Virus record (IMG/VR): IMGVR_UViG_3300034093_001452
Span: 1-26,788 of that record
DNA length: 26,788 bases
Reading direction: 5' to 3' (one strand)
DNA from: a virus
A program made the translations under genes and the position numbers. The notes beneath the pieces are model-generated. The model had not been told where the DNA came from, did not search any database, and was given only the letters and a program-made list of their open reading frames with translations. Within the stretch, counting starts at the first letter, position 1, and each line of letters starts with the position of its first letter. Positions 4,019-26,707 of the stretch are shown piece by piece.

Positions 4019-4582
4019 CTATTTACTGTTTTTAAAAGAAACAGCGACTTGCCATTTAACACGTGCAACTATAGGCCAAGTAACACCACAAACATCACCC
4101 TCTGTAAGGATTAGAGCATCATACTGATTGTAAATATCCTTAAACCCCATATTATTTAATAAGTCAATAATGCGGTCTTCATGACAGTTCCAGTAGTGGG
4201 GAGCACCATCCCACATAACACCATATTTTTCATATTGAAAGTTTTTATCTTGATGTTCTAAGGTAATCATCACATCTTTGATGTCTAACTCATCAGTTTT
4301 CCACATATTAAGAACTTTAAAGACATCAGGACCAACCACCATAATTTGAGCATCTGGCGTGGCAATACGTGAGATTTCATTTAAAAATGACGGTACATCA
4401 TTCCAAGAGATATGTTCAAGGATGTGACCTAAATAGATAACATCAAAAGATGAGTCATCAAACGGGTAAGGTTCTCCACTTTTTACTAGAACGTCAGGTG
4501 TTATGTTTTCACTTTGAAATACATCAGTGTTAACCCACCCATCCGCATAAAAAGGACCACATCCTACGTTTAGTTTGTTCAT
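4019..4582 (-). CDS. Class I SAM-dependent methyltransferase
   Basis: 187 residues. KLNVGCGPFYADGWVNTDV (3-21) is motif I with its post-I acidic residue (D20), followed by PYPFDDSSFDVIYLGHILEH (38-57), typical of the Methyltransf_11-like family in which DVI.. .LEH marks motif II, and a strand with IMVVGPD after the helix of motif III. The C-terminal region contains WDGAPHYWNCHEDRIIDLL, probably covering the acceptor site. Such enzymes next to glycosyltransferase and epimerase genes often methylate sugars or lipids; the target here is unknown. It is a single-gene unit on the minus strand, divergent from the exported protein and convergent with the small-gene cluster. The ATG at 4582 has AAGG 3 bases upstream and a TATAGT box 8 bases upstream. 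Confidence 0.88.
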   Translation of the reverse strand: MNKLNVGCGPFYADGWVNTDVFQSENITPDVLVKSGEPYPFDDSSFDVIYLGHILEHISWNDVPSFLNEISRIATPDAQIMVVGPDVFKVLNMWKTDELDIKDVMITLEHQDKNFQYEKYGVMWDGAPHYWNCHEDRIIDLLNNMGFKDIYNQYDALILTEGDVCGVTWPIVARVKWQVAVSFKNSK

Positions 4583-4603: not shown

Positions 4604-4615
4604 TAAACTGTATTA
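4604..4615 (+). promoter_or_regulatory. Leaderless promoter TAAACT-N6-ATG
   Basis: TAAACT (4604-4609), six bases (GTATTA), then ATG at 4616. No Shine-Dalgarno sequence is present and none would fit in a transcript starting at the ATG. The 11 bases TAAACTGTATT are identical to those before the endolysin gene (19750-19760). Confidence 0.6.
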
Positions 4616-5881
4616 ATGCGTAAATCCCGTTTGCGGATTACAAGTGGTTTCTTGTGGGTAATGCTCACATTCTTGGGGTTTTATCCGTCATCTCCCGCTA
4701 AAGCCGAAAACTTAATAATCACTGAACCAACAGATGTTTGGTTTGATTACAATGAAACAACGCAGTTTATAGCGCAAACATACATGATTACTGGGTACAA
4801 CTCAGACCCAATGTTGTGGTTGTATAACGAAGAAGGCACTTTGCTTTACAGCATTGATGACTCCATTGGCTTGCAGTCGTACATCTCTATGGAAGTACCT
4901 GCTGGTCGCTACAGACTACGGGCTGGTATTTGCTGTGGAAACCCTGATGCTTGGCATACAAATCAAGGGTGGAACTTGCGGTATGAACTGGGGTTCAATG
5001 GTGTTGGGTCTACTCAAACCACTTCTACAACCTCTACTACGGTAGAACCAACCACAACGACTTCCACGACTTCTACGACTTCTACCACTACGTCTACGAC
5101 TTCTACCACGACTTCCACAACATCCACAACCACAACGACACTGGCACCAACCACAACCACGTCATCTACTACCACCACCGTTTTGACAACGACAACGACA
5201 ACAGAGCCACCGACAACGACAGTATTACCGACAAGTACAACATCTACAACCTCCACTACGGTTCCTGAAACTACCACTACTTTAGCACCTGTGACGAATA
5301 CCACAAGTACCTCTACAAGTACTACCACTTTGGTCCCTGTACCCACAACCACTACTACAAGTACCTCTACGACCACTACAGTGCCTTCTACGACCACTAC
5401 AACTGAACCTGTACAAGAACTTGTACAGGTTGACCCAGAAGTAACTGCTCTATTAGGAGCCATCAGTATGTTGCCTCAATCTGAAATTGCAGCGGCTGTG
5501 GATAATATTATTGAAGAAGGTGTCAGTCCTGATGAAGCAACCGCCCTTGCTACTAACCCAGAAGTTTTGCAGTCTGTTACAGCCGAACAAGCCGCAGAAA
5601 TCTTTGACGCTGTAGAAGTATCAGAGTTGTCTGACGCACAAGCCGAACAACTTGTTGAGGCTGTTCAAGGTGCTACAGAGGAAGTCAGAGCCGAATTTGA
5701 AGATAAAATTAACGTGTTCGGTGGGAAATTTAATGGATATGTCCCCGTTGGTTCAAACATTGACGTCGGACAAAGAAAAGTACTAGTTGCCGCAACTGGT
5801 ATATTATTTATGGCACCAGCAGTTTCTGTATCTTCGTCTACCAGTGGTTCTCCGTCATCGGACTCTCGTAGGAAGCAATAA
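4616..5881 (+). CDS. Exported surface protein: signal peptide, beta domain, Thr-rich stalk, C-terminal membrane segment
   Basis: 421 residues. Residues 1-30 form a Sec signal peptide: basic start (RKSRLR), hydrophobic core (FLWVMLTFLGFY) and an AKA cleavage site (28-30). Residues 31-133 look like a PPC-type beta-sandwich (MLWLYNEEGTLLYSIDD, then VPAGRYRLRAG). Residues about 134-264 are an almost pure Thr/Ser stalk. Residues 265-370 are acidic helical (TAEQAAEIF, LSDAQAEQLVEAV). A hydrophobic segment at about 388-405 (VLVAATGILFMAPAVSV) precedes a Ser-rich tail ending in RRKQ, as in wall- or membrane-anchored proteins, though no LPXTG motif is seen. The product should be displayed on the host surface. 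It may have been captured from an actinobacterial host. Possible roles are superinfection exclusion, adhesion or lysis control; none is proven. The stop overlaps the next ATG. Confidence 0.85.
   Translation: MRKSRLRITSGFLWVMLTFLGFYPSSPAKAENLIITEPTDVWFDYNETTQFIAQTYMITGYNSDPMLWLYNEEGTLLYSIDDSIGLQSYISMEVPAGRYRLRAGICCGNPDAWHTNQGWNLRYELGFNGVGSTQTTSTTSTTVEPTTTTSTTSTTSTTTSTTSTTTSTTSTTTTTLAPTTTTSSTTTTVLTTTTTTEPPTTTVLPTSTTSTTSTTVPETTTTLAPVTNTTSTSTSTTTLVPVPTTTTTSTSTTTTVPSTTTTTEPVQELVQVDPEVTALLGAISMLPQSEIAAAVDNIIEEGVSPDEATALATNPEVLQSVTAEQAAEIFDAVEVSELSDAQAEQLVEAVQGATEEVRAEFEDKINVFGGKFNGYVPVGSNIDVGQRKVLVAATGILFMAPAVSVSSSTSGSPSSDSRRKQ
5017..5406 (+). repeat. Thr-codon tandem low-complexity region
   Basis: About 390 bases of ACN and TCN codons, with short units such as ACGACTTCTACC reiterated imperfectly, encoding TTST-type repeats broken by PTT, LAPT and EPVQ spacers. 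The repeat stays in frame throughout. Codon variation between units argues against very recent slippage. Confidence 0.9.
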
Positions 5882-6042
5882 TGAAATTCTTTAAAGAAAT
5901 ATACGCCCTCTTGTGGACACTTGCAGGTACTTGTCTTGTACTAATCACACTTTCTGGCTCCGTTAAGGTCCTTGCTTTGTGGATTACGGGTATTACATTA
6001 ACTTTGCATCTCTTGGGGTCTTTTTTCCAAGACGATGAGTAG
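5881..6042 (+). CDS. Two-TM small membrane protein (holin-like candidate)
   Basis: 53 residues starting at the ATG that shares its A with the upstream TAA. Two hydrophobic helices, about 8-24 (YALLWTLAGTCLVLITL) and 28-48 (VKVLALWITGITLTLHLLGSF), are joined by the short turn SGS; the N-terminus has two Lys and the C-terminus is acidic (QDDE). This hairpin topology fits a class II holin or a membrane partner of the exported protein it is coupled to. It lies 14 kb from the endolysin, and two other membrane proteins (20773, 25018) lie closer, so the holin call is weak. The gene is well supported by the coupling and by its membrane helices. Confidence 0.65.
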   Translation: MKFFKEIYALLWTLAGTCLVLITLSGSVKVLALWITGITLTLHLLGSFFQDDE

Positions 6043-6055
6043 CACCTGTCTAGGG

Positions 6056-6067
6056 TAAACTAGTTAC
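6056..6067 (+). promoter_or_regulatory. Leaderless promoter TAAACT-N6-ATG (start of fibre array)
   Basis: TAAACT (6056-6061), six bases (AGTTAC), then ATG at 6068. No Shine-Dalgarno sequence is seen. This is the only clear promoter before the 13-kb fibre array, so the array may be read from here as a long transcript. Confidence 0.6.
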
Positions 6068-6787
6068 ATGGCTAACGTTCCACATACAGTCAATTACAAA
6101 TTAGACAGAGGACTCCCGTGGGAGCGCCTTATTATAGTAAAAAATAAATATAGCCACGCCCTTTTGTACCCTACTGAGGCTCGTGCTTTTATCAAAACAG
6201 GAACTCTATCAAAAGTTGAAATTACTACAGTTATTACTACTGAACGAGGAATTGAACTTTCATTAACTGCTGAGGAAACCCAAGATTTACCCCTTGGAGA
6301 CCTGCAATACGATGTAATGGCTACTATCAAAGGCGTTCAGCGCCCAGTATCTGGCGGTACAATTACTGTATCTGCTTTAGACACTATTACCCCTCTGGAG
6401 GACACACAGGCTATGGAAATCCGTTATAAGCAACACACGGACTACCGCCGTACCTTCACATGGAAGGACTCAACTGGCGCTGTCATGACCATCCAAAGCG
6501 CCTTCATGCAGGCTAAGACGTCTACTGGCACTACTGTTGTGGACTTGCGCTGGTATTCCACCACACCTTCAGAAAACACCGTAATAGCCTTAACCCCTGC
6601 CAGCAAGCGTGGTTACCTAGCGCCAGCAACAGGTGCAACCTTAGAATTACATATTTCTAATACCAACGACGTTGCCGCTGGTTCATACCCATTTGACCTT
6701 TTTGTACAAGATTCGTCAGGTGATTGGGATTGCCTATCATCAGGAACCCTAGTAGTTGAAGCAGCGGTTTCAGCACCACCTGTATGA
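6068..6787 (+). CDS. Baseplate/tail appendage protein with two repeated beta domains
   Basis: 239 residues, soluble, no signal peptide. It is built of two similar halves: residues about 8-105 (YKLDRGLPWERLIIVKNKYS ... DLPLGDLQYDVMATI ... SGGTITVSA) and 117-232 (IRYKQHTDYRRTFTWKDSTG ... VAAGSYPFDLFVQDSSGDW ... SGTLVVEA). Each has the shape of the immunoglobulin-like domains found at the N-terminus of baseplate upper or fibre-connecting proteins: an opening strand with an aromatic, a distal hairpin and a final strand after GxY. It may connect fibres to the baseplate. It is the first gene after the leaderless promoter and overlaps the next gene by ATGA (6784-6787). Confidence 0.65.
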   Translation: MANVPHTVNYKLDRGLPWERLIIVKNKYSHALLYPTEARAFIKTGTLSKVEITTVITTERGIELSLTAEETQDLPLGDLQYDVMATIKGVQRPVSGGTITVSALDTITPLEDTQAMEIRYKQHTDYRRTFTWKDSTGAVMTIQSAFMQAKTSTGTTVVDLRWYSTTPSENTVIALTPASKRGYLAPATGATLELHISNTNDVAAGSYPFDLFVQDSSGDWDCLSSGTLVVEAAVSAPPV

Positions 6788-8501: not shown

Positions 8502-11500
8502 ATGGCTAACTTTCTCAAATCACTATTTGTCAAGGGCGTTGAGATTGACCCTGCTGGCGCTGCCAGCGACCAAGTACTTAAATACAACGGAACTAAGTTT
8601 GTTCCTGGTACTGCCTCTACTGTTGGCTCTATTGATGACCTTTCAGACGTTATTGTCACCACACCTTCTAATGGTCAAGCCCTTGTATATAACGGCACCG
8701 ACTGGGTAAATGGTGCTTCAGGAGTTGCTGGGAGTACATACACCGCAACTATTGGTGATGGTACCAATGATGTTTTTGTTTTATCGCATGGTCTTAACAC
8801 TCGTGATGTCTTTGTTACTATCCGTAATGCGGCTTCTCCTTATGAAGTTATTGACGCTTATTGGGCGGCTACTACAACTGGCACAGTAACTATTGACTTC
8901 AGCGTTGTACCAACTATCAATAGTGTTCGTGTGGCTATCTATGCCGCTGTAACAGGTAATAACACTGCATTAGCCCTTGACACCCTCACAGATGTTGTTA
9001 TCAGTACACCAGCCAATGGTCAATTTCTTGAGTTTGATGGTACAAACTGGGTTAATAAGGTTAGCCCATCCAATGAGCCGATGGGTCATGAGAATAAAGC
9101 AGACAGCGTTATTTCATTTAACGAAGGTACACGCACATTTTCTATTGCACCAGCATCTACATCATACACAGTGTGGTGTGCAGGTAAACGGTTTGTAAAG
9201 ACAACCACATCAACGGTCATTATTCCAGATACATCAGGTCTTTACTACATTTACTTTGACTCTTCAGGTGTTTTAAGTTATCGGACCAGTTACTTTGTTT
9301 GGGATACAGACGCACCAACTGCTTACATTTACTGGAATGAAGTAGACAATAAGGCTTACTTCTTTGCTGATGAGCGCCACGGAATCACTCTTGACTGGGC
9401 AACACACGAGTACCTACATAGGACTCGTGGTGCGGCTATTGCTAATGGATTTGGAATAAGTTGGGCGGCAGGTAACGGTTCATCTGACACTGATGCAAAG
9501 TTTGACCTTGCTAATGGAACATTTTTTGATGAAGACCTTCAGGTTGATGTCACGCATTCTGCAACTCCAATTGCAAACACATGGGAACAGACTCTTCAGG
9601 GCAACGCAGAGATACCATCTTTTTACAGAGATGGAGACCACTGGAAAAAAGATAATGCAACAGAATTTGCTTTTAAGCAAGGTTCTGGTAGACCAAAGTA
9701 CAACTTGTATTCTGGCGGAGCGTGGACAACTGCGACAGCGCAAAACGGTTATTACATAATTTCGTGGATTGTCGCAACAAACAACCTGAACGAGCCAATA
9801 CTTTCCATTATGGGGCAAACTGCCTATGTTAATCAAGGGCTAGCAGAAGAAGCGCTATGGGAAGACCTTGATTTATCAGCATTACCTATCCATGAATTTC
9901 GCCCGCTTCACAAAATCATTTACAAAGCGCTAGATACATACACAAACTCGGTAAATGCCCGTATCGTCTTAGTGACAGATATCCGACAGATTCTTTCCAC
10001 TGATGGAGCAATCCCATCAACTCCAGTATCCGACCACGGGTCAATGACTGGCCTTGCAGATGATGACCACACTCAGTACTTAACTGATACTCGCCATAAT
10101 GCTTTAGACCACAGTACAGCCATGGCAAGCGTTGTTATTGATGACCTTTCAGATGTTGCCATTACATCACCTGCAAATGGTGAAATATTAAAATATAACT
10201 CTGCTACAAGTTTGTGGACTAACGCTTCTGCTGGTGGGGTTGTTGTTCTTAATGATTTAACTGATGTATCTGCTGCAACACCAATTACATCTCAACCACT
10301 CATTTGGGATGGCACCAACTGGCAATCTGGGTCATTTAACCAGTACCTTCGCTTAGGTGAATCGGGTGTTACTGACTGGTTGCAGTTAAGCCCTCAATCA
10401 TTGCAACTAAATCCAAGTGCGGGGCTTGCTCGCTTCTCTTACTATGAAGTAGTCATCAATGACACCGTTTATCAGGCAGAACTACTTCCTCAAGAACTTA
10501 AATGGACTGACTGGAGCAACGGTAACCAAACAAAAATACAACCGATTGGTGCAACTAACGGGCAAGTACTTGCTTTCAATACTGGTTCATCGTCTTATGT
10601 GCCTTCAAATATACCTATTGATAGTCTCAGTGACGTTGTTATTACTAGCCCTACTGATGGTCAAGTATTAAAATATAATACTGCTACAAGTTTGTGGACT
10701 AACGCTTCTGCTGGTGGTGGAGCAAGTATTACTGTCTCTGATACACCACCAGTGTCCCCTACTGCTGGAGCGCTTTGGTTTGAATCTGATAGTGGTCTTA
10801 CCTTTATTTACTATGATTCCCAGTGGATTGAAATTGGCGCAGGCGCTTCCTACGACCCCATTACAAGAATTGTTCAGGCTAAAGGTGATTTAATCCTTGG
10901 AACTGCCTCACAGACCGTAGACCGTTTAACTGTAGGAAGTAACAGCCAAAGGCTTATTGCTAACTCAAGTACCGCTACGGGGGTCTCATGGGCTTCTGAC
11001 AGCACTAATACAGTCATTGATACTAAAGGCGACCTTCTTGTAGGTGCTACAGCAGATGTTGTAGCCAAGTTGCCAGTAGGCACAGATAACCAAGTTCTTG
11101 TTGCTGACTCTACTGCTACCAATGGTGTTTCTTGGCAAAGTAAACCTTTTAATACAGCATGGGGAACTATTGCATATCAACAAGCAACATCTAACTCGGC
11201 TGGTTTTTCTAGTGAAACAGTAATGTTGACAACAAGTGCATTTACTGCTATTGCTGGTCGCAGATATAAAATTACATACTTTGAATCGGGCGTTTCAACA
11301 CTTAGCGGAACAGTTAACTTTATTAGGTCACGGATAAGGTTGACAAATATCTCTGGAACAATTCTGAATTTTTCAGAAAATGCAATTATTAATCAAAGAA
11401 ACAATACAACTAACTTTTGCATAACAACATCTTTATCTGGTTCTGTAACTGTTTGTGGGACCCTTGAAGCAAGTGGTGGTGGTTCAGGTATCTGTTCTCG

Positions 11501-11552: not shown

Positions 11553-11716
11553 TGGCTATTGACTTTCCAAACTCCCCTACAGCAAATCAGACCTACACAG
11601 TCGGTGGTAAGACATGGACATACGACGGTGAAAAGTGGGTTGTCGTGGACAAAGTAAACAACGCCTCTAATCAGTTATATGATGTTACGGTATTATTGCG
11701 TATGGAGACTAACTAA
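11552..11716 (+). CDS. Small fibre-associated protein
   Basis: 54 residues between two TAATG junctions, starting MAIDFPNSPTANQTYTVGGK and continuing TWTYDGEKWVVVDK. The F(P)NSP..GQ.YT.GGKTW..DG..W pattern is a common phage tail fibre module, often at the N-terminus of larger fibre proteins, and here it stands alone. It could be the detached head module of a former larger fibre gene or a small subunit that caps a fibre. No membrane or signal features. Both junctions imply coupled translation with the large fibre gene upstream and the tail-collar gene downstream. Confidence 0.7.
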   Translation: MAIDFPNSPTANQTYTVGGKTWTYDGEKWVVVDKVNNASNQLYDVTVLLRMETN

Positions 11717-12603
11717 TGGCTCGTAGGCGTGTAGACACAGCACCACAATTTAACGTTGGCGCTGATTCAGTATTAATCCAGCAAGTATCAGGGTCAACCT
11801 CTACTATTTTTGAGGTTAAGAACTCTTCTGGCGCATCTGTAATGGCTATTGATAGTTCTGGCGCAACCACGGCTACCTTTGCTGCTGGTGTAGGTCTACC
11901 AGTGGGCATGATTACCCCGTTTGCTGGTTCTACGGCACCAACAGGTTGGTTGCTTTGCTACGGACAAGCGGTATCTAGAACAACCTATGCCGCTTTGTTC
12001 GCAGTTCTTTCAACTACTTACAATACTGGTGTCGTAGCAGAAACTGACTTCTGTCTTCCTGACCTTCGTGGTCGTACGGTTGCTGGTATTGACAATATGG
12101 GCGGCACAGACGCTCTTCGCCTTGATATTGCCAATAGTTCTGGAACAGTTATTGGGTCACAGTATGTAACTTTGACTTCCGCACAGTCAGGAGTCCCTGC
12201 TCACTCCCATGACAATACTGCTTCATTTAGCGGTTCTTTTACGGGTACTGGTAGCACAACGGGAAATGATTCTCCAGACCACTCACACTCTGGCACTACT
12301 TCAATGAACGCTTACACAGACTTCTTGAGAGTTGTAGGTGTTGCTGGTACAACAATGGAAAATAACCATGCAGTAGGTCGTGGAGGAGGTTCGTATGCTG
12401 ACCATACAGGTTCTTACCCGAACCACCAACACAACTTCAGTACGGGTGGTGCTTCTGCTCGTCATGCACACTCTTTTACCCCTGCTGGTTCAATTTCAGG
12501 TTCTGTAACGATGAGCAACCAACCCAACACGGCTGCATCTGCTGCTGAATCTCATAGCGTAATGCAGCCAACAATGGTTCTAAACTATATAGTGAGGTAC
12601 TAA
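11716..12603 (+). CDS. Tail collar-domain fibre protein with HxH motifs
   Basis: 295 residues. Residues about 1-57 are a shaft (SVLIQQVSGSTSTIFEVKNS). Residues about 58-130 are a phage tail collar domain: VGMITPFAGSTAPTGWLLCY, GQAVSRTTYAALFAVL, then FCLPDLRGRTVAGIDNMGG. The C-terminal part has four HxH motifs (H163/H165, H189/H191, H237/H239, H250/H252) in Gly/Ser/Thr-rich sequence and ends MQPTMVLNYIVRY, the typical tip ending. In the long tail fibre tip of phage T4 (gp37), HxH motifs bind iron along a trimeric needle; a similar metal-bound needle is likely here but inferred. It is paralogous to 15947..16537. Confidence 0.92.
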   Translation: MARRRVDTAPQFNVGADSVLIQQVSGSTSTIFEVKNSSGASVMAIDSSGATTATFAAGVGLPVGMITPFAGSTAPTGWLLCYGQAVSRTTYAALFAVLSTTYNTGVVAETDFCLPDLRGRTVAGIDNMGGTDALRLDIANSSGTVIGSQYVTLTSAQSGVPAHSHDNTASFSGSFTGTGSTTGNDSPDHSHSGTTSMNAYTDFLRVVGVAGTTMENNHAVGRGGGSYADHTGSYPNHQHNFSTGGASARHAHSFTPAGSISGSVTMSNQPNTAASAAESHSVMQPTMVLNYIVRY

Positions 12604-15606: not shown

Positions 15607-15947
15607 TGGCTGTCGGTGACCGTAATGAAACTAGGTTCTTTGGACCATCAACGTTGGGTGCCTCTAGCGCTGGACTTGGCACCACCGCTGTCCCTTCTGG
15701 GCAGACATGGATTATTAAACAAATGACTATTTGCAATACTACTGGTGTAGATAGGCTTGTATACATGGGCGTAGGCACTACAGAAACTCCAAGCAACCGC
15801 TTCTTCTCGGCGCTTCCTATTGGTGGTTTTGACACAATTGTATGGGATACAGGTCTAGTACTAACCGCTGGTGAACGTCTTTGGGGCTACAGTGATAGCG
15901 CCAGCGCCGTATCCGTGATGGCAATGGGCTGGGTTAAGGAAGTTTAA
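15606..15947 (+). CDS. Fibre head-domain protein (paralogue B)
   Basis: 113 residues consisting almost entirely of the head domain seen at 12603 and 15118: RNETRFFGPSTLGASSAGLG, then WIIKQMTICNTTGVDRLVYM, RFFSALPIGGFDTIVWD, and a last strand VSVMAMGWVKEV. No shaft or tip follows. The family resemblance is in the ET/EK-R(F/L).GPS.L start, the IIKQ strand and the L..A...D strand pairs. It is likely a virion protein that decorates or caps a fibre. Both ends are TAATG junctions, joining it to paralogue A and to the second tail collar protein. Confidence 0.78.
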   Translation: MAVGDRNETRFFGPSTLGASSAGLGTTAVPSGQTWIIKQMTICNTTGVDRLVYMGVGTTETPSNRFFSALPIGGFDTIVWDTGLVLTAGERLWGYSDSASAVSVMAMGWVKEV

Positions 15948-16537
15948 TGCCTATTTCTGCTGCATTAAGTAGTGCGGGGGCTGTTCCTGTTGGTGTTGTA
16001 AACCCATTTGCTGGTGCAACTGCCCCTGCTGGTTGGTTGTTGTGTTCTGGACAGTTAGTTAGTCGTACACAGTATCCTGTGTTGTTTACCACTATTGGAA
16101 CTACATATGGTGCTGGTGATGGTTCTACTACTTTTGCTATTCCCGATATGCGTGGTCGTTCTGTTGCAGGTAAAGATGATATGGGCGGTACGGCTATTAA
16201 CCGAATCACTAGTGCTGTTTCAGGTATCACAGGTACAACACTTGGTGCTACTGGTGGTAACGAAAACCCTCAATTGCATACTCACACAATTACTGGTGGC
16301 GCACATACACACGAAGTAAGAGGTGGAAGTGTTTATTCTGCTAATGGTACTGCCGACAGTTTCGCCCGTTCAAACACAACTGGTGATGTCAATTTTAGAA
16401 GTGGCTTTGAAGCGACTGGTTCAGGTTTCGGTTCATCAATGGCAACACATACACATAGTTCATCTAATTATGGAACTGGTACGGCAGGAAATGTTCAGCC
16501 AACCATCATTCTTAACTACATCATTAAGGCGCAATAG
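15947..16537 (+). CDS. Second tail collar-domain fibre protein with HxH motifs
   Basis: 196 residues, paralogous to 11716..12603 but lacking its N-terminal shaft. Residues about 12-90: VGVVNPFAGATAPAGWLLCS, GQLVSRTQYPVLFTTIGTTY, then FAIPDMRGRSVAGKDDMGG. The C-terminal part contains three HxH motifs (LHTHTI, AHTHEV, THTHSS) separated by Gly/Ser-rich sequence and ends VQPTIILNYIIKAQ. As in its paralogue, these fit a metal-binding needle tip. Two collar-type tip proteins in one phage may mean two fibre types or alternative tips. It begins at a TAATG junction and ends 2 bases before the next start. Confidence 0.92.
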   Translation: MPISAALSSAGAVPVGVVNPFAGATAPAGWLLCSGQLVSRTQYPVLFTTIGTTYGAGDGSTTFAIPDMRGRSVAGKDDMGGTAINRITSAVSGITGTTLGATGGNENPQLHTHTITGGAHTHEVRGGSVYSANGTADSFARSNTTGDVNFRSGFEATGSGFGSSMATHTHSSSNYGTGTAGNVQPTIILNYIIKAQ

Positions 16538-19749: not shown

Positions 19750-19761
19750 TAAACTGTATTC
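19750..19761 (+). promoter_or_regulatory. Leaderless promoter TAAACT-N6-ATG (lysis region)
   Basis: TAAACT (19750-19755), six bases (GTATTC), then ATG at 19762. It shares 11 identical bases with the element at 4604. It gives the endolysin gene a promoter separate from the fibre array. Confidence 0.65.
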
Positions 19762-20289
19762 ATGACCAGAAAATACTCTTATTACCCCAGTTTTGACGGA
19801 AAAAAGGCACAGCCTGGAACCTTAAAATTAGCCGAACTTTGTGCCAAGAGATACAAAGCCACCAATATGGGAATTTATGTTGCCCGATTGATGCGAAATT
19901 CTCATACCGAAGGTAAGAAGATTGGTGACCCAGGCATGGAAAAGTGGATGTCTGTTCATGCCACTGGAGCCGCTATAGACCTTGGGTACACTGACCGTAA
20001 GGTTGGCGTTGCTATGTGGGACTTCTTGTTGGCACACACGTTAGAACTTGGCATTGAAGAAATCCACGACTACGCATTTGACACAAACGTCAAGGACAAA
20101 GTGCAGGGTTATGGAAGAGGCTTCAGGTGCTCAAGAGGAGAAAATTCTAAAGGGGTAAAGATTTTCACCAAGGATGATAACGCTGGAAGTTTTGGGGGCA
20201 AGTGGTTGCATGTAGAACTTTCTCCAGAGATGGCTAAAGACGCTGCAAAGTTTGAAGCCGCATGGCGAGCAATTCCAAAGCCTGAATAA
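19762..20289 (+). CDS. Endolysin-type M15 peptidase
   Basis: 175 residues, no signal peptide. SVHATGAAIDLGY (64-76) is the SxHxxGxAxD motif of M15 peptidases, giving zinc ligands H66 and D73, and KWLHVELSPE (147-156) supplies the third ligand H150 in the W.H element. M15 enzymes cut D-Ala-D-Ala or L-Ala-D-Glu bonds in peptidoglycan stem peptides; phage versions are endolysins. The usual acidic residue before the last His is not obvious (K147 in that place). No cell-wall-binding domain is attached, so the protein is a single catalytic module. It is preceded by its own leaderless promoter and followed by genes for a KTSC protein and a membrane protein, together a plausible lysis cassette. Confidence 0.87.
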   Translation: MTRKYSYYPSFDGKKAQPGTLKLAELCAKRYKATNMGIYVARLMRNSHTEGKKIGDPGMEKWMSVHATGAAIDLGYTDRKVGVAMWDFLLAHTLELGIEEIHDYAFDTNVKDKVQGYGRGFRCSRGENSKGVKIFTKDDNAGSFGGKWLHVELSPEMAKDAAKFEAAWRAIPKPE

Positions 20290-25293: not shown

Positions 25294-25578
25294 GTGGAAA
25301 CACATTCACTTGTTGAGGCATTAAAAACGCCACAAGCACACGGTATAGGCGTGAATTGCAAATTCTCACAGATTCGTGACCTCCTCTCTGCGGAAGAGAT
25401 GGAAGCCCTAGATAAAGCAGTTGACGGTATTCGTCAAGATGCTGGGATGGGAAAGTCCAAAAGGTTTAGCGCCTCATGGTTATCAAAAGTACTTGATTCT
25501 TTTGGTCATTTTGTAAGTGTTTCAACTGTTCAACGCCACGTAAACAAGGAGTGCTCTTGTGAGCGAATTAGCCGATAA
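25294..25578 (+). CDS. HTH-like small DNA-binding protein
   Basis: 94 residues from GTG, fixed by GAAGGA six bases upstream. N-terminal part: KFSQIRDLLSAEEMEALDKA, a helical dimer-like region. C-terminal part: RFSASWLSKVLDSFGHFVSV then STVQRHVNKECSC, which reads as a helix-turn-helix (FSASWLSKVL, turn GHFVS, recognition helix STVQRHVN) with a C.C end. Small phage proteins with an S.(S/T)(T/V)(I/V).RH...(C) ending are either transcription regulators or small terminase-like subunits; I cannot separate the two. A dedicated promoter and a leader hairpin suggest regulated expression. Its last 20 bases overlap the next gene. Confidence 0.5.
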   Translation: METHSLVEALKTPQAHGIGVNCKFSQIRDLLSAEEMEALDKAVDGIRQDAGMGKSKRFSASWLSKVLDSFGHFVSVSTVQRHVNKECSCERISR

Positions 25579-26707
25579 ATTATCCACACCCCCTGAGTCC
25601 AAAGCACAAGCCCTTGGCAAGTTAGTAGAAATCCTTGACCGTCAAAACATTGACATCAATGAAATTGGTTCTGTAAAACGTGTAAGCCTTTATCAGTCAT
25701 TGACTAAAGACCAAGATGGTGAAGCACAAATCCATGACCTTGCGGCTATTCAGTTCTCACCTAAGTGGGCAGAAGGTCCTGAGTGGGACCCTGTTAACCA
25801 AGGTCCTGCAATTAAGTTGCCTAAAGTTACTGTTAAACAGTCGGTGTCTACTTGGAAGAAATGTGTTGTTCTTCCTGACATCCAGGCTGGGTTCTTTCGT
25901 AATGCAAATGGAGAACTGGTCAGTACCCACGACCCAGTTGCAATGGACTACGCACTTGCAGTTATCAAGGCAGAAAAGCCTGACATCGTAGCCCTCAACG
26001 GAGATAACGCTGACCTTCCAGAGATGTCAAAGTATCGGTTGAGTCCTGCGTTCTCTATGACTACCCAAGCAACAATTGATTACCTAACCACGTTGTGCGC
26101 CCAAATCAGAGATGCGGCTCCTTATGCTCGTATTATCTGGATGGAAGGTAACCATGAGATTCGTCTTACGAACTACATCATTGACAATGCTAAAGCCGCA
26201 TTTGGGTTGAAGCAGGGTAATACCCCTACCTCCTTCCCAGTGCTCTCTATTCCCTTCCTGTGCCGTTTTGAGGACTTTGGGGTGGAGTACTTCGCTGGAT
26301 ACCCAGCCAGCCAGTTTTGGCTAAACAACCGCATCAAGATTATCCATGGAACCAAGGTGGCTTCGGGTGGCTCTACCGCCCATAAGTACCTAGGCACAGA
26401 AAAGTCATCTGTGGTCTATGGTCATATTCACCGCCGTGAGTGGGCTGAGCGCACCCGTAGCGACTGGGATGGTCCAAAGACCATTGCCGCCATCTCCTTT
26501 GGCTGTCTAGCCCGTGTGGACGGTATGGTGCCATCTACCAAGGGTGGCATGGACCTAGATGGTCGCCCAATCACCTGCGTAGAGGATTGGCAACAGGGGC
26601 TTGGGATTATTTACTACCAAGAGGGTGATGGTGCTTTCCACCCCGAAATGCTTCCAATCCATGACGGAACCATGTTTTATAAGGGCAAGTTACTAGGTGT
26701 AGAATAG
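25559..26707 (+). CDS. Metallophosphoesterase (calcineurin-like)
   Basis: 382 residues. Metal-binding motifs in order: PDIQAG (D107, with Gln109 in place of the usual His of DxH), LNGDNADLPE (D149), EGNHE (N198, H199), IIHGTK (H263) and YGHIHRRE (H289, H291). These bind the two metal ions of calcineurin-like phosphoesterases; D-x-Q is a variant seen in phage members. Possible substrates are nucleic acid ends, cyclic nucleotides or phosphoproteins; none is indicated. Residues 1-95 are an extra N-terminal region without motifs. The GTG start is fixed by AAGGAG (25546-25551) seven bases upstream, inside the preceding gene. It is expressed with the HTH-like gene, between terminase and the genes beyond the window. 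Confidence 0.9.
   Translation: MSELADKLSTPPESKAQALGKLVEILDRQNIDINEIGSVKRVSLYQSLTKDQDGEAQIHDLAAIQFSPKWAEGPEWDPVNQGPAIKLPKVTVKQSVSTWKKCVVLPDIQAGFFRNANGELVSTHDPVAMDYALAVIKAEKPDIVALNGDNADLPEMSKYRLSPAFSMTTQATIDYLTTLCAQIRDAAPYARIIWMEGNHEIRLTNYIIDNAKAAFGLKQGNTPTSFPVLSIPFLCRFEDFGVEYFAGYPASQFWLNNRIKIIHGTKVASGGSTAHKYLGTEKSSVVYGHIHRREWAERTRSDWDGPKTIAAISFGCLARVDGMVPSTKGGMDLDGRPITCVEDWQQGLGIIYYQEGDGAFHPEMLPIHDGTMFYKGKLLGVE

Follow-up and report, generated by a model that had tools for sequence, protein, structure and literature searches.

A phage-encoded stalked surface protein with exchangeable heads and an obligate small membrane partner, tentatively assigned to receptor masking

Why should a phage encode a large, exported, stalked protein directly followed by a small membrane protein, and what would the two do on the surface of an infected cell? 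The question is raised by a gene pair in the window (the whole stretch of DNA analysed here, an IMG/VR virus record of 26,788 bases). The large terminase encoded in the window is 46.5–48.4% identical to those of six Streptomyces phage records, including BRock, and a run of tail-fibre genes lies near the pair. The features concerned are as follows.

4604..4609, + strand: leaderless-type -10 element TAAACT, six bases ahead of the surface-gene ATG
4616..5881, + strand: surface stalk protein gene (ORF of 421 amino acids; dN/dS)
4616..4705, + strand: signal peptide, residues 1–30, with AKA at residues 28–30 (judged by eye)
4706..5011, + strand: predicted PPC-like beta-sandwich head, residues 31–132 (AF2 model, PDB and Pfam matches)
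5012..5410, + strand: Thr/Ser stalk, residues 133–265 (composition)
5411..5779, + strand: conserved helical C-domain, residues 266–388, reading EQAAEIFDA ... YVPVGSNIDVGQRK in the window (homology, model)
5780..5830, + strand: C-terminal hydrophobic segment, approximately residues 389–405 (hydropathy scan, model)
5831..5878, + strand: Ser-rich tail ending RRKQ (sequence), presumably cytoplasmic from the natural fusions
5881..6042, + strand: membrane partner of 53 amino acids, predicted two-helix, with an LAGTxLVLITLSG motif (ORF, PHROG matches, conservation)
6056..6787, + strand: TAAACT element and first gene of the tail-fibre run (phrog_1084, unknown function; gene starts at 6068)
19750..20289, + strand: TAAACT element and endolysin-type gene, M15-like by eye (gene starts at 19762; SVHATGxAxD motif)

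The original prediction described the first product as an exported, stalked protein with a signal peptide, a PPC-like head, a Thr/Ser stalk, an acidic helical domain, a hydrophobic end and a basic tail, and each of these parts could be located at 4616–5881. The stalk consists of 81 Thr and 20 Ser among its 133 residues (101/133), and residues 266–375 carry 23 D/E against 3 K/R. The hydrophobic segment was placed from a hydropathy scan of the near-identical copy in locus L002, with three leading residues subtracted. No lipobox is present, AKA being followed by E-N with no cysteine at the cleavage site, and a test for a sortase anchor found no LPXTG motif in residues 266–421. Signal-peptide-like N-termini were also seen by eye in most full-length members of the family. 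That the phage encodes an exported, stalked protein with an adhesive-type head, a helical domain and a weak hydrophobic helix is well supported.

The head of the window protein was modelled by AF2 as all-beta, with a mean pLDDT of 75. Its PDB matches include PPC and collagen-binding domains of collagenases (5sv5 and 3jqw; TM 0.60–0.66, E 3e-3 to 6e-3) and Tk-SP (3afg; E 6.4e-5), with other jelly-rolls scoring similarly. The window protein itself had no Pfam match at E 0.05, PPC included; the PPC family (PF04151) was matched by two of 48 relatives, with a best E of 1.7e-6. Taken with the model, these matches point to a jelly-roll beta-sandwich of PPC-like type. The heads of the family are diverse: at E up to 0.01, Pfam domains among the 48 members comprised fn3 (11), PA14 (10), EPTP (5), LCCL (3), PPC (2), SUEL lectin (1) and beta-helix (1).

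Seven pairs of relatives were compared for the likeness of their heads. L083 and L087 have C-domains that are 93% identical and heads no closer than shuffled sequence (181 of 200 shuffles scored as high); the same holds for L057 and L066 (C-domains 87% identical; 172 of 200 shuffles). In L054 and L017, with 86% identity in the C-domain, the likeness of the heads is borderline (2/200 shuffles), and related heads were found in L005/L004, L017/L026, L087/L089 and L011/L046. By these alignments, heads appear to be swapped on conserved anchors. Heads of the PPC and PA14 types were also sought in the other genes of 23 module-carrying records, chosen as mostly longer ones, and occurred only in the surface genes; nothing therefore shows that the head copies the receptor-binding fold of the phage itself. 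A search of 50 loci for heads shared with neighbouring genes gave a single match, between part of L102 and a gene of L039. A head common to surface protein and tail fibres was rejected, as none was found in the 50 loci or, for PPC and PA14, in the 23 records.

The conserved C-domain was examined through the natural fused relative L014, the C-terminus of which (276 residues, 37 alignment rows) gave an AF2 model with a pTM of 0.49. This contains a well-predicted helical domain, a weaker helix at 121–141, a disordered linker and a two-helix hairpin corresponding to the partner (pLDDT 54–83). Searches with the C-domain gave a best E of 0.1 with Foldseek against the PDB; with VIA-align the best Z was 8.0 (rmsd 9.7, 139 aligned), followed by helical-repeat proteins, including soluble domains of MgtE at Z 5.8 (rmsd 3.2, 103 aligned) and Z 4.9 (rmsd 3.4, 90 aligned), middling values in a range common for helical models that may reflect just a common arrangement. 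There is thus no clear fold match, which does not make the fold new. Protein A constructs were matched in a PDB profile search (E 0.0009) over 34 positions. Weak Pfam matches to the helical region among the 48 members, namely GatB_Yqey (19), Glycos_trans_3N (18), AcMNPV_Ac75 (11) and DUF445 (11), lay below the cut-off in six proteins examined singly, except for AcMNPV_Ac75 in L073, which was just above it. These identities were rejected, the matches being taken as generic acidic helical repeats.

The second gene had been predicted to encode a 53-residue protein joined to the first by TAATG, and this junction is borne out at 5881–6042, the two ORFs sharing one base. The accompanying claim of two transmembrane helices finds support in the hairpin of the fused model and in many relatives, in which the hydropathy scan gives two helices, and fared less well in the window copy, with one clear helix. 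The partner matches phrog_29041 (E 2.9e-9) and phrog_36365 (E 6.8e-4), both PHROGs of unknown function. It matched no holin family model: these were its only PHROG matches, and it had none in Pfam or NCBIfam.

Are the two genes truly a unit? C-domains were clustered at 85% identity and the member with the most downstream sequence was inspected in each cluster. The partner gene was present in 54 of 54 clusters: fused to the surface gene in five (those of L014, L025, L049, L102 and DSL-LC01), overlapping it by 1–4 nt in 26, following at 0–20 nt in 17 and lying farther away in six. Among 186 C-domain loci, drawn from overlapping sets in which the same contigs were often counted twice, the partner was separate in 173, fused in nine and missing in four, all four of which are cut at a contig end. 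A second count over overlapping sets, with the window included, found it adjacent or fused in 105 of 108 loci, L010, L040 and L077 stopping at a contig edge. The reverse search, starting from the partner, gave 467 IMG/VR places; in 78 of the 80 loci kept, a C-domain lay directly upstream of the partner or was fused to it, and the two exceptions begin at a contig edge. The coupling of the two genes on which the original prediction depended was hence kept at all loci except those truncated by the end of a contig, and surface gene and partner are an obligate pair wherever the sequence is long enough. L027 is a split intermediate, with a linker as in the fusions that carries a stop and a new ATG.

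The natural fusions also bear on topology, because they place the tail of the surface protein and the N-terminus of the partner on the same side of the membrane. This side would be the cytoplasm, the helices of the two proteins may pack as a single anchor, and the partner may, judging from the fusions, be N-in/C-in, the arrangement expected of a class II holin. As a separate observation, the two genes seem to have had separate histories: L004 has a head and C-domain close to those of the window and a divergent partner (dN 0.44), and in L005 it is the head that has diverged (dN 0.68), the partner being closer to that of the window (dN 0.13).

The large protein might instead be a component of the virion, such as a tail fibre or decoration protein, rather than of the cell surface. 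It adjoins tail genes in the window, and a single member among 48 has a match to a minor-tail PHROG (E 1.1e-5); the signal-peptide-like N-termini (judged by eye), the C-terminal hydrophobic helix and the obligate membrane partner all argue the other way, and we consider a virion role very improbable.

How widespread is the pair, and in which hosts? The C-terminal domain of the window protein found 27 viral loci as a query, and an alignment search with the C-domain gave 279 confirmed IMG/VR places, from which 80 loci were kept. A homology search of this kind had been proposed against viral and actinobacterial proteins; it succeeded on the viral side and gave no relative in species genomes, in scans of low sensitivity. 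The original prediction called such a display protein uncommon in lytic phage genomes; in the phages found here it is not rare. As viral sequences keep the pair in hundreds of places, and all of its parts are under purifying selection in the near group (dN/dS 0.05–0.29 for the window against four relatives, with one head comparison saturated and the small-gene dS of 1.5–2.9 too high for precision), it is more than a chance association. Each of 23 records examined (23/23) has a single C-domain copy.

With three C-domain and two partner queries, tblastn over 50,697 phage records had DSL-LC01 as its sole match. This Actinomycetia phage encodes a family member, WJZ48438.1, in which C-domain and partner are fused in a protein of 944 amino acids; it differs from the window protein in its other head modules and is annotated just as a hypothetical protein. 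The DSL-LC01 paper (PMC10611076) makes no mention of fibronectin, and the passages of it available to us do not discuss the fused gene. BFVD gave nine matches at E up to 0.001, with 33–50% identity to the fused L014 end, so that members of the family are already in databases; these are proteins of uncultured Caudovirales phages (for example A0A6J5P167, A0A6J5Q6G8 and A0A6J7WWL4), unnamed, or named for the head alone (Fibronectin type III, PA14) or with a TerB-like label. The core of the pair has no model in Pfam, NCBIfam or PADLOC, and in PHROGs only the two clusters matched by the partner; no PADLOC-DB family was matched at E 0.01 by L014 or by either window protein, and Rfam had no match in the window.

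WhiB was found in 19 of the 23 records, the window's own 26.8-kb fragment being without it, and a phrog_2 terminase in 16 of 23. WhiB has been called exclusive to Actinobacteriota (PMC10202952), and its presence in these records points to actinobacterial hosts. By gene content, the carrier phages thus appear to infect Actinobacteria.

It had further been suggested that the C-terminal half was captured from a host. Under this account of its origin, which is compatible with any of the jobs discussed below, a host gene pair was taken up by phages and kept its surface function. Thr-rich surface proteins are frequent among Actinobacteria, which together with the impression behind the original prediction is what favours capture. 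When 84,980 species genomes were scanned twice, the 185 and 180 pattern matches included no relative. Each scan used one peptide pattern, carried by 25 and 30 of the 35 rows of alignment A3 respectively; this negative is weak, because either pattern is present in only 20 of the 78 C-domain loci found through the partner gene. The window domain also had no relative in 72,556 plasmid records. Set against 279 viral places, these results leave host capture unsupported and, in our judgement, improbable.

The pair was proposed to be under a leaderless promoter, and TAAACT does stand six bases upstream of the ATG. The window has three sites of the form TAAACT-N6-ATG against 0.34 expected, a count of three being reached in one of 100 shuffles; since the motif was picked after the first two sites had been seen, only the third, before the endolysin-like gene, is independent. 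A looser form of the motif was not above chance, and a sigma-70 scan found 6 sites where chance alone predicts 6.3; terminator-like sites numbered 7 against 2.5 expected. In L004, L005, L006, L009 and L039 the surface gene is likewise preceded by TAAACT. Ahead of the tail gene the element stands in the window and L005/G001 only; it also precedes other genes, is missing in more distant loci and is replaced by TAAAAT before the endolysin-like gene of G001. The module is probably made late, with the tail and lysis proteins; as the motif was chosen post hoc and is patchy among relatives, this is only what we infer. Elsewhere in G001 (81,500–89,400, minus strand), TAAG(A/G)T stands six bases before the ATG of twelve small ORFs; rather than promoters, these may be ribosome sites that are coupled to the stop codon just upstream.

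Lysis-type genes recur around the module. Of 48 clusters with sufficient sequence, 28 have a holin-like or endolysin-like gene within 2.5 kb downstream and 22 have an endolysin-like one there, and a lysis-type gene was found on either side in 16 of 29 clusters with both flanks; these counts lean upward, because the lysis models were built from the same neighbourhoods as were counted. Several loci have the surface gene, partner, a holin-like gene and a VanY-type gene in tight order. Given such neighbours and a membrane partner, the helical domain and partner might work together with holin and endolysin, either as a holin-like accessory pair or as a lysis factor that spans the wall. The TAAACT motif common to the surface gene and the endolysin-like gene of the window is in keeping with this, as is the precedent of LysF1a/LysF1b in F1 mycobacteriophages, where LysF1a is described as a small two-helix N-in/C-in protein of an actinophage lysis cassette (PMC13056207), so that actinophage lysis can use small proteins with two transmembrane domains of this topology. 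The likeness to LysF1a is drawn from its description; LysF1a has 88 amino acids, and no fusion to a surface protein is described for it in the portions of that source available. The label holin-like, moreover, is weak, as the L004 copy has a stronger match to a PHROG called nuclease (E 5e-20) than to the holin PHROG (E 5.6e-5), and the partner itself has matches just to PHROGs of unknown function. Lysis would have no need of adhesive heads and stalks, a pore former would hardly be expected as a fused 1:1 partner, and approximately 14 kb separate the pair from the endolysin-like gene in the window. That gene had no Pfam, PHROG or NCBIfam match, its peptidase label coming from the SVHATGxAxD motif as read by eye. 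Control of lysis is a possible assignment, though not the favoured one.

The likeliest of the several possible jobs, to which we give a probability of roughly one in three, is receptor masking against superinfection and loss of progeny. Their anatomy argues for surface protein and partner as one membrane-anchored, two-subunit surface-display module. Under masking, the displayed heads would attach to glycans or proteins in the host envelope and hide the receptors on which the phage's tail fibres depend; infected cells and lysis debris would then no longer bind related or progeny virions, and by exchanging heads the module would keep up with the receptor types found on different hosts. Masking fits because the head would be on the cell's own surface, the neighbours are tail and lysis genes and heads are exchanged. 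It is supported by the obligate pairing, the adhesive type of the swapped heads, the promoter motif common to the surface gene, the tail operon and the endolysin-like gene of the window, purifying selection and the precedent of T5 Llp, which is described as preventing adsorption to infected cells and to lysed fragments (PMC9586334). In both cases a phage-made envelope protein would stop adsorption to infected cells and debris; Llp differs in being a small outer-membrane lipoprotein that is made early, whereas the protein displayed by the module is large and stalked, is anchored at its C-terminus, has a membrane partner and belongs to phages of Actinobacteria.

Several points count against masking. 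The absence of PPC and PA14 heads from the other genes of the 23 records is one; another is timing, since exclusion proteins are typically made early, according to the same source (PMC9586334), and the TAAACT motif suggests late expression, for which support is itself thin. Lysis-type neighbours (28/48 clusters) are not required by masking, and a stalk that reaches outward suits binding in trans at least equally well.

Binding in trans is the essence of the flocculin-like alternative, in which the heads bind neighbouring hosts or particles, infected and fresh cells clump and progeny find hosts in dilute water. The outward stalk and the flocculin-like plan fit this reading: head, Thr/Ser stalk and C-terminal anchor resemble yeast adhesins, described as surface-anchored proteins with lectin-like PA14 heads, and 10 of 48 members here carry PA14; lectin-type and other adhesive heads are likewise swapped between relatives. 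Yeast PA14 adhesins have a Ser/Thr stalk. Yeast flocculins differ in being GPI-anchored wall proteins, whereas the module is phage-encoded with a transmembrane anchor and a partner, and no homology over the whole protein is claimed. The benefit to the phage is speculative, and we rank adhesion as a possible job behind masking and narrowly ahead of lysis control. The heads could also serve as sensors: a head detecting superinfecting virions or neighbouring cells might signal through stalk and helical domain to the partner, which would delay or trigger the holin and endolysin encoded next to it, in a counterpart of lysis inhibition that has its receptor outside the cell. This we hold to be unlikely.

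Phages that alter the host surface are already known. In the open-access literature, as far as its texts were available, we met no description of a surface protein with a stalk and swapped heads that is obligately paired with a two-helix partner of its own. The pair is widespread in uncultured phages, mostly WhiB-carrying, and none of Pfam, PHROGs, NCBIfam and PADLOC assigns it a function. If masking or stickiness is its job, it would give phages a modular way to rebuild the surface of infected actinobacteria, and the exchangeable heads may report the chemistry of host surfaces.

Other genes of the window and of relatives were recorded in passing. Divergent from the surface gene is a methyltransferase gene (4019–4582, minus strand; PF08241, E 2.9e-8) with relatives in 10 of 50 loci, and glycosyltransferase-like genes, recognized by eye, recur near the module; such neighbours might modify the stalk or the virion. 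Two tail-collar-type genes of the window (11716–12603 and 15947–16537) have many PHROG matches in common and are likely, on this basis, a duplicated receptor-binding module. A metallophosphoesterase gene at 25559–26707 (phrog_20266, E 1.6e-72) has relatives in 13 of 50 loci. Between partner and tail run, L122 (5465–6003) and L144 (6244–6782) carry two more small membrane-protein genes, judged by eye. Finally, a large protein encoded at 8873–10231 of L014 (family F22) has weak matches, below the cut-off, to Ig-like and macroglobulin domains, and its relatives lie downstream of the module in seven of 50 loci.
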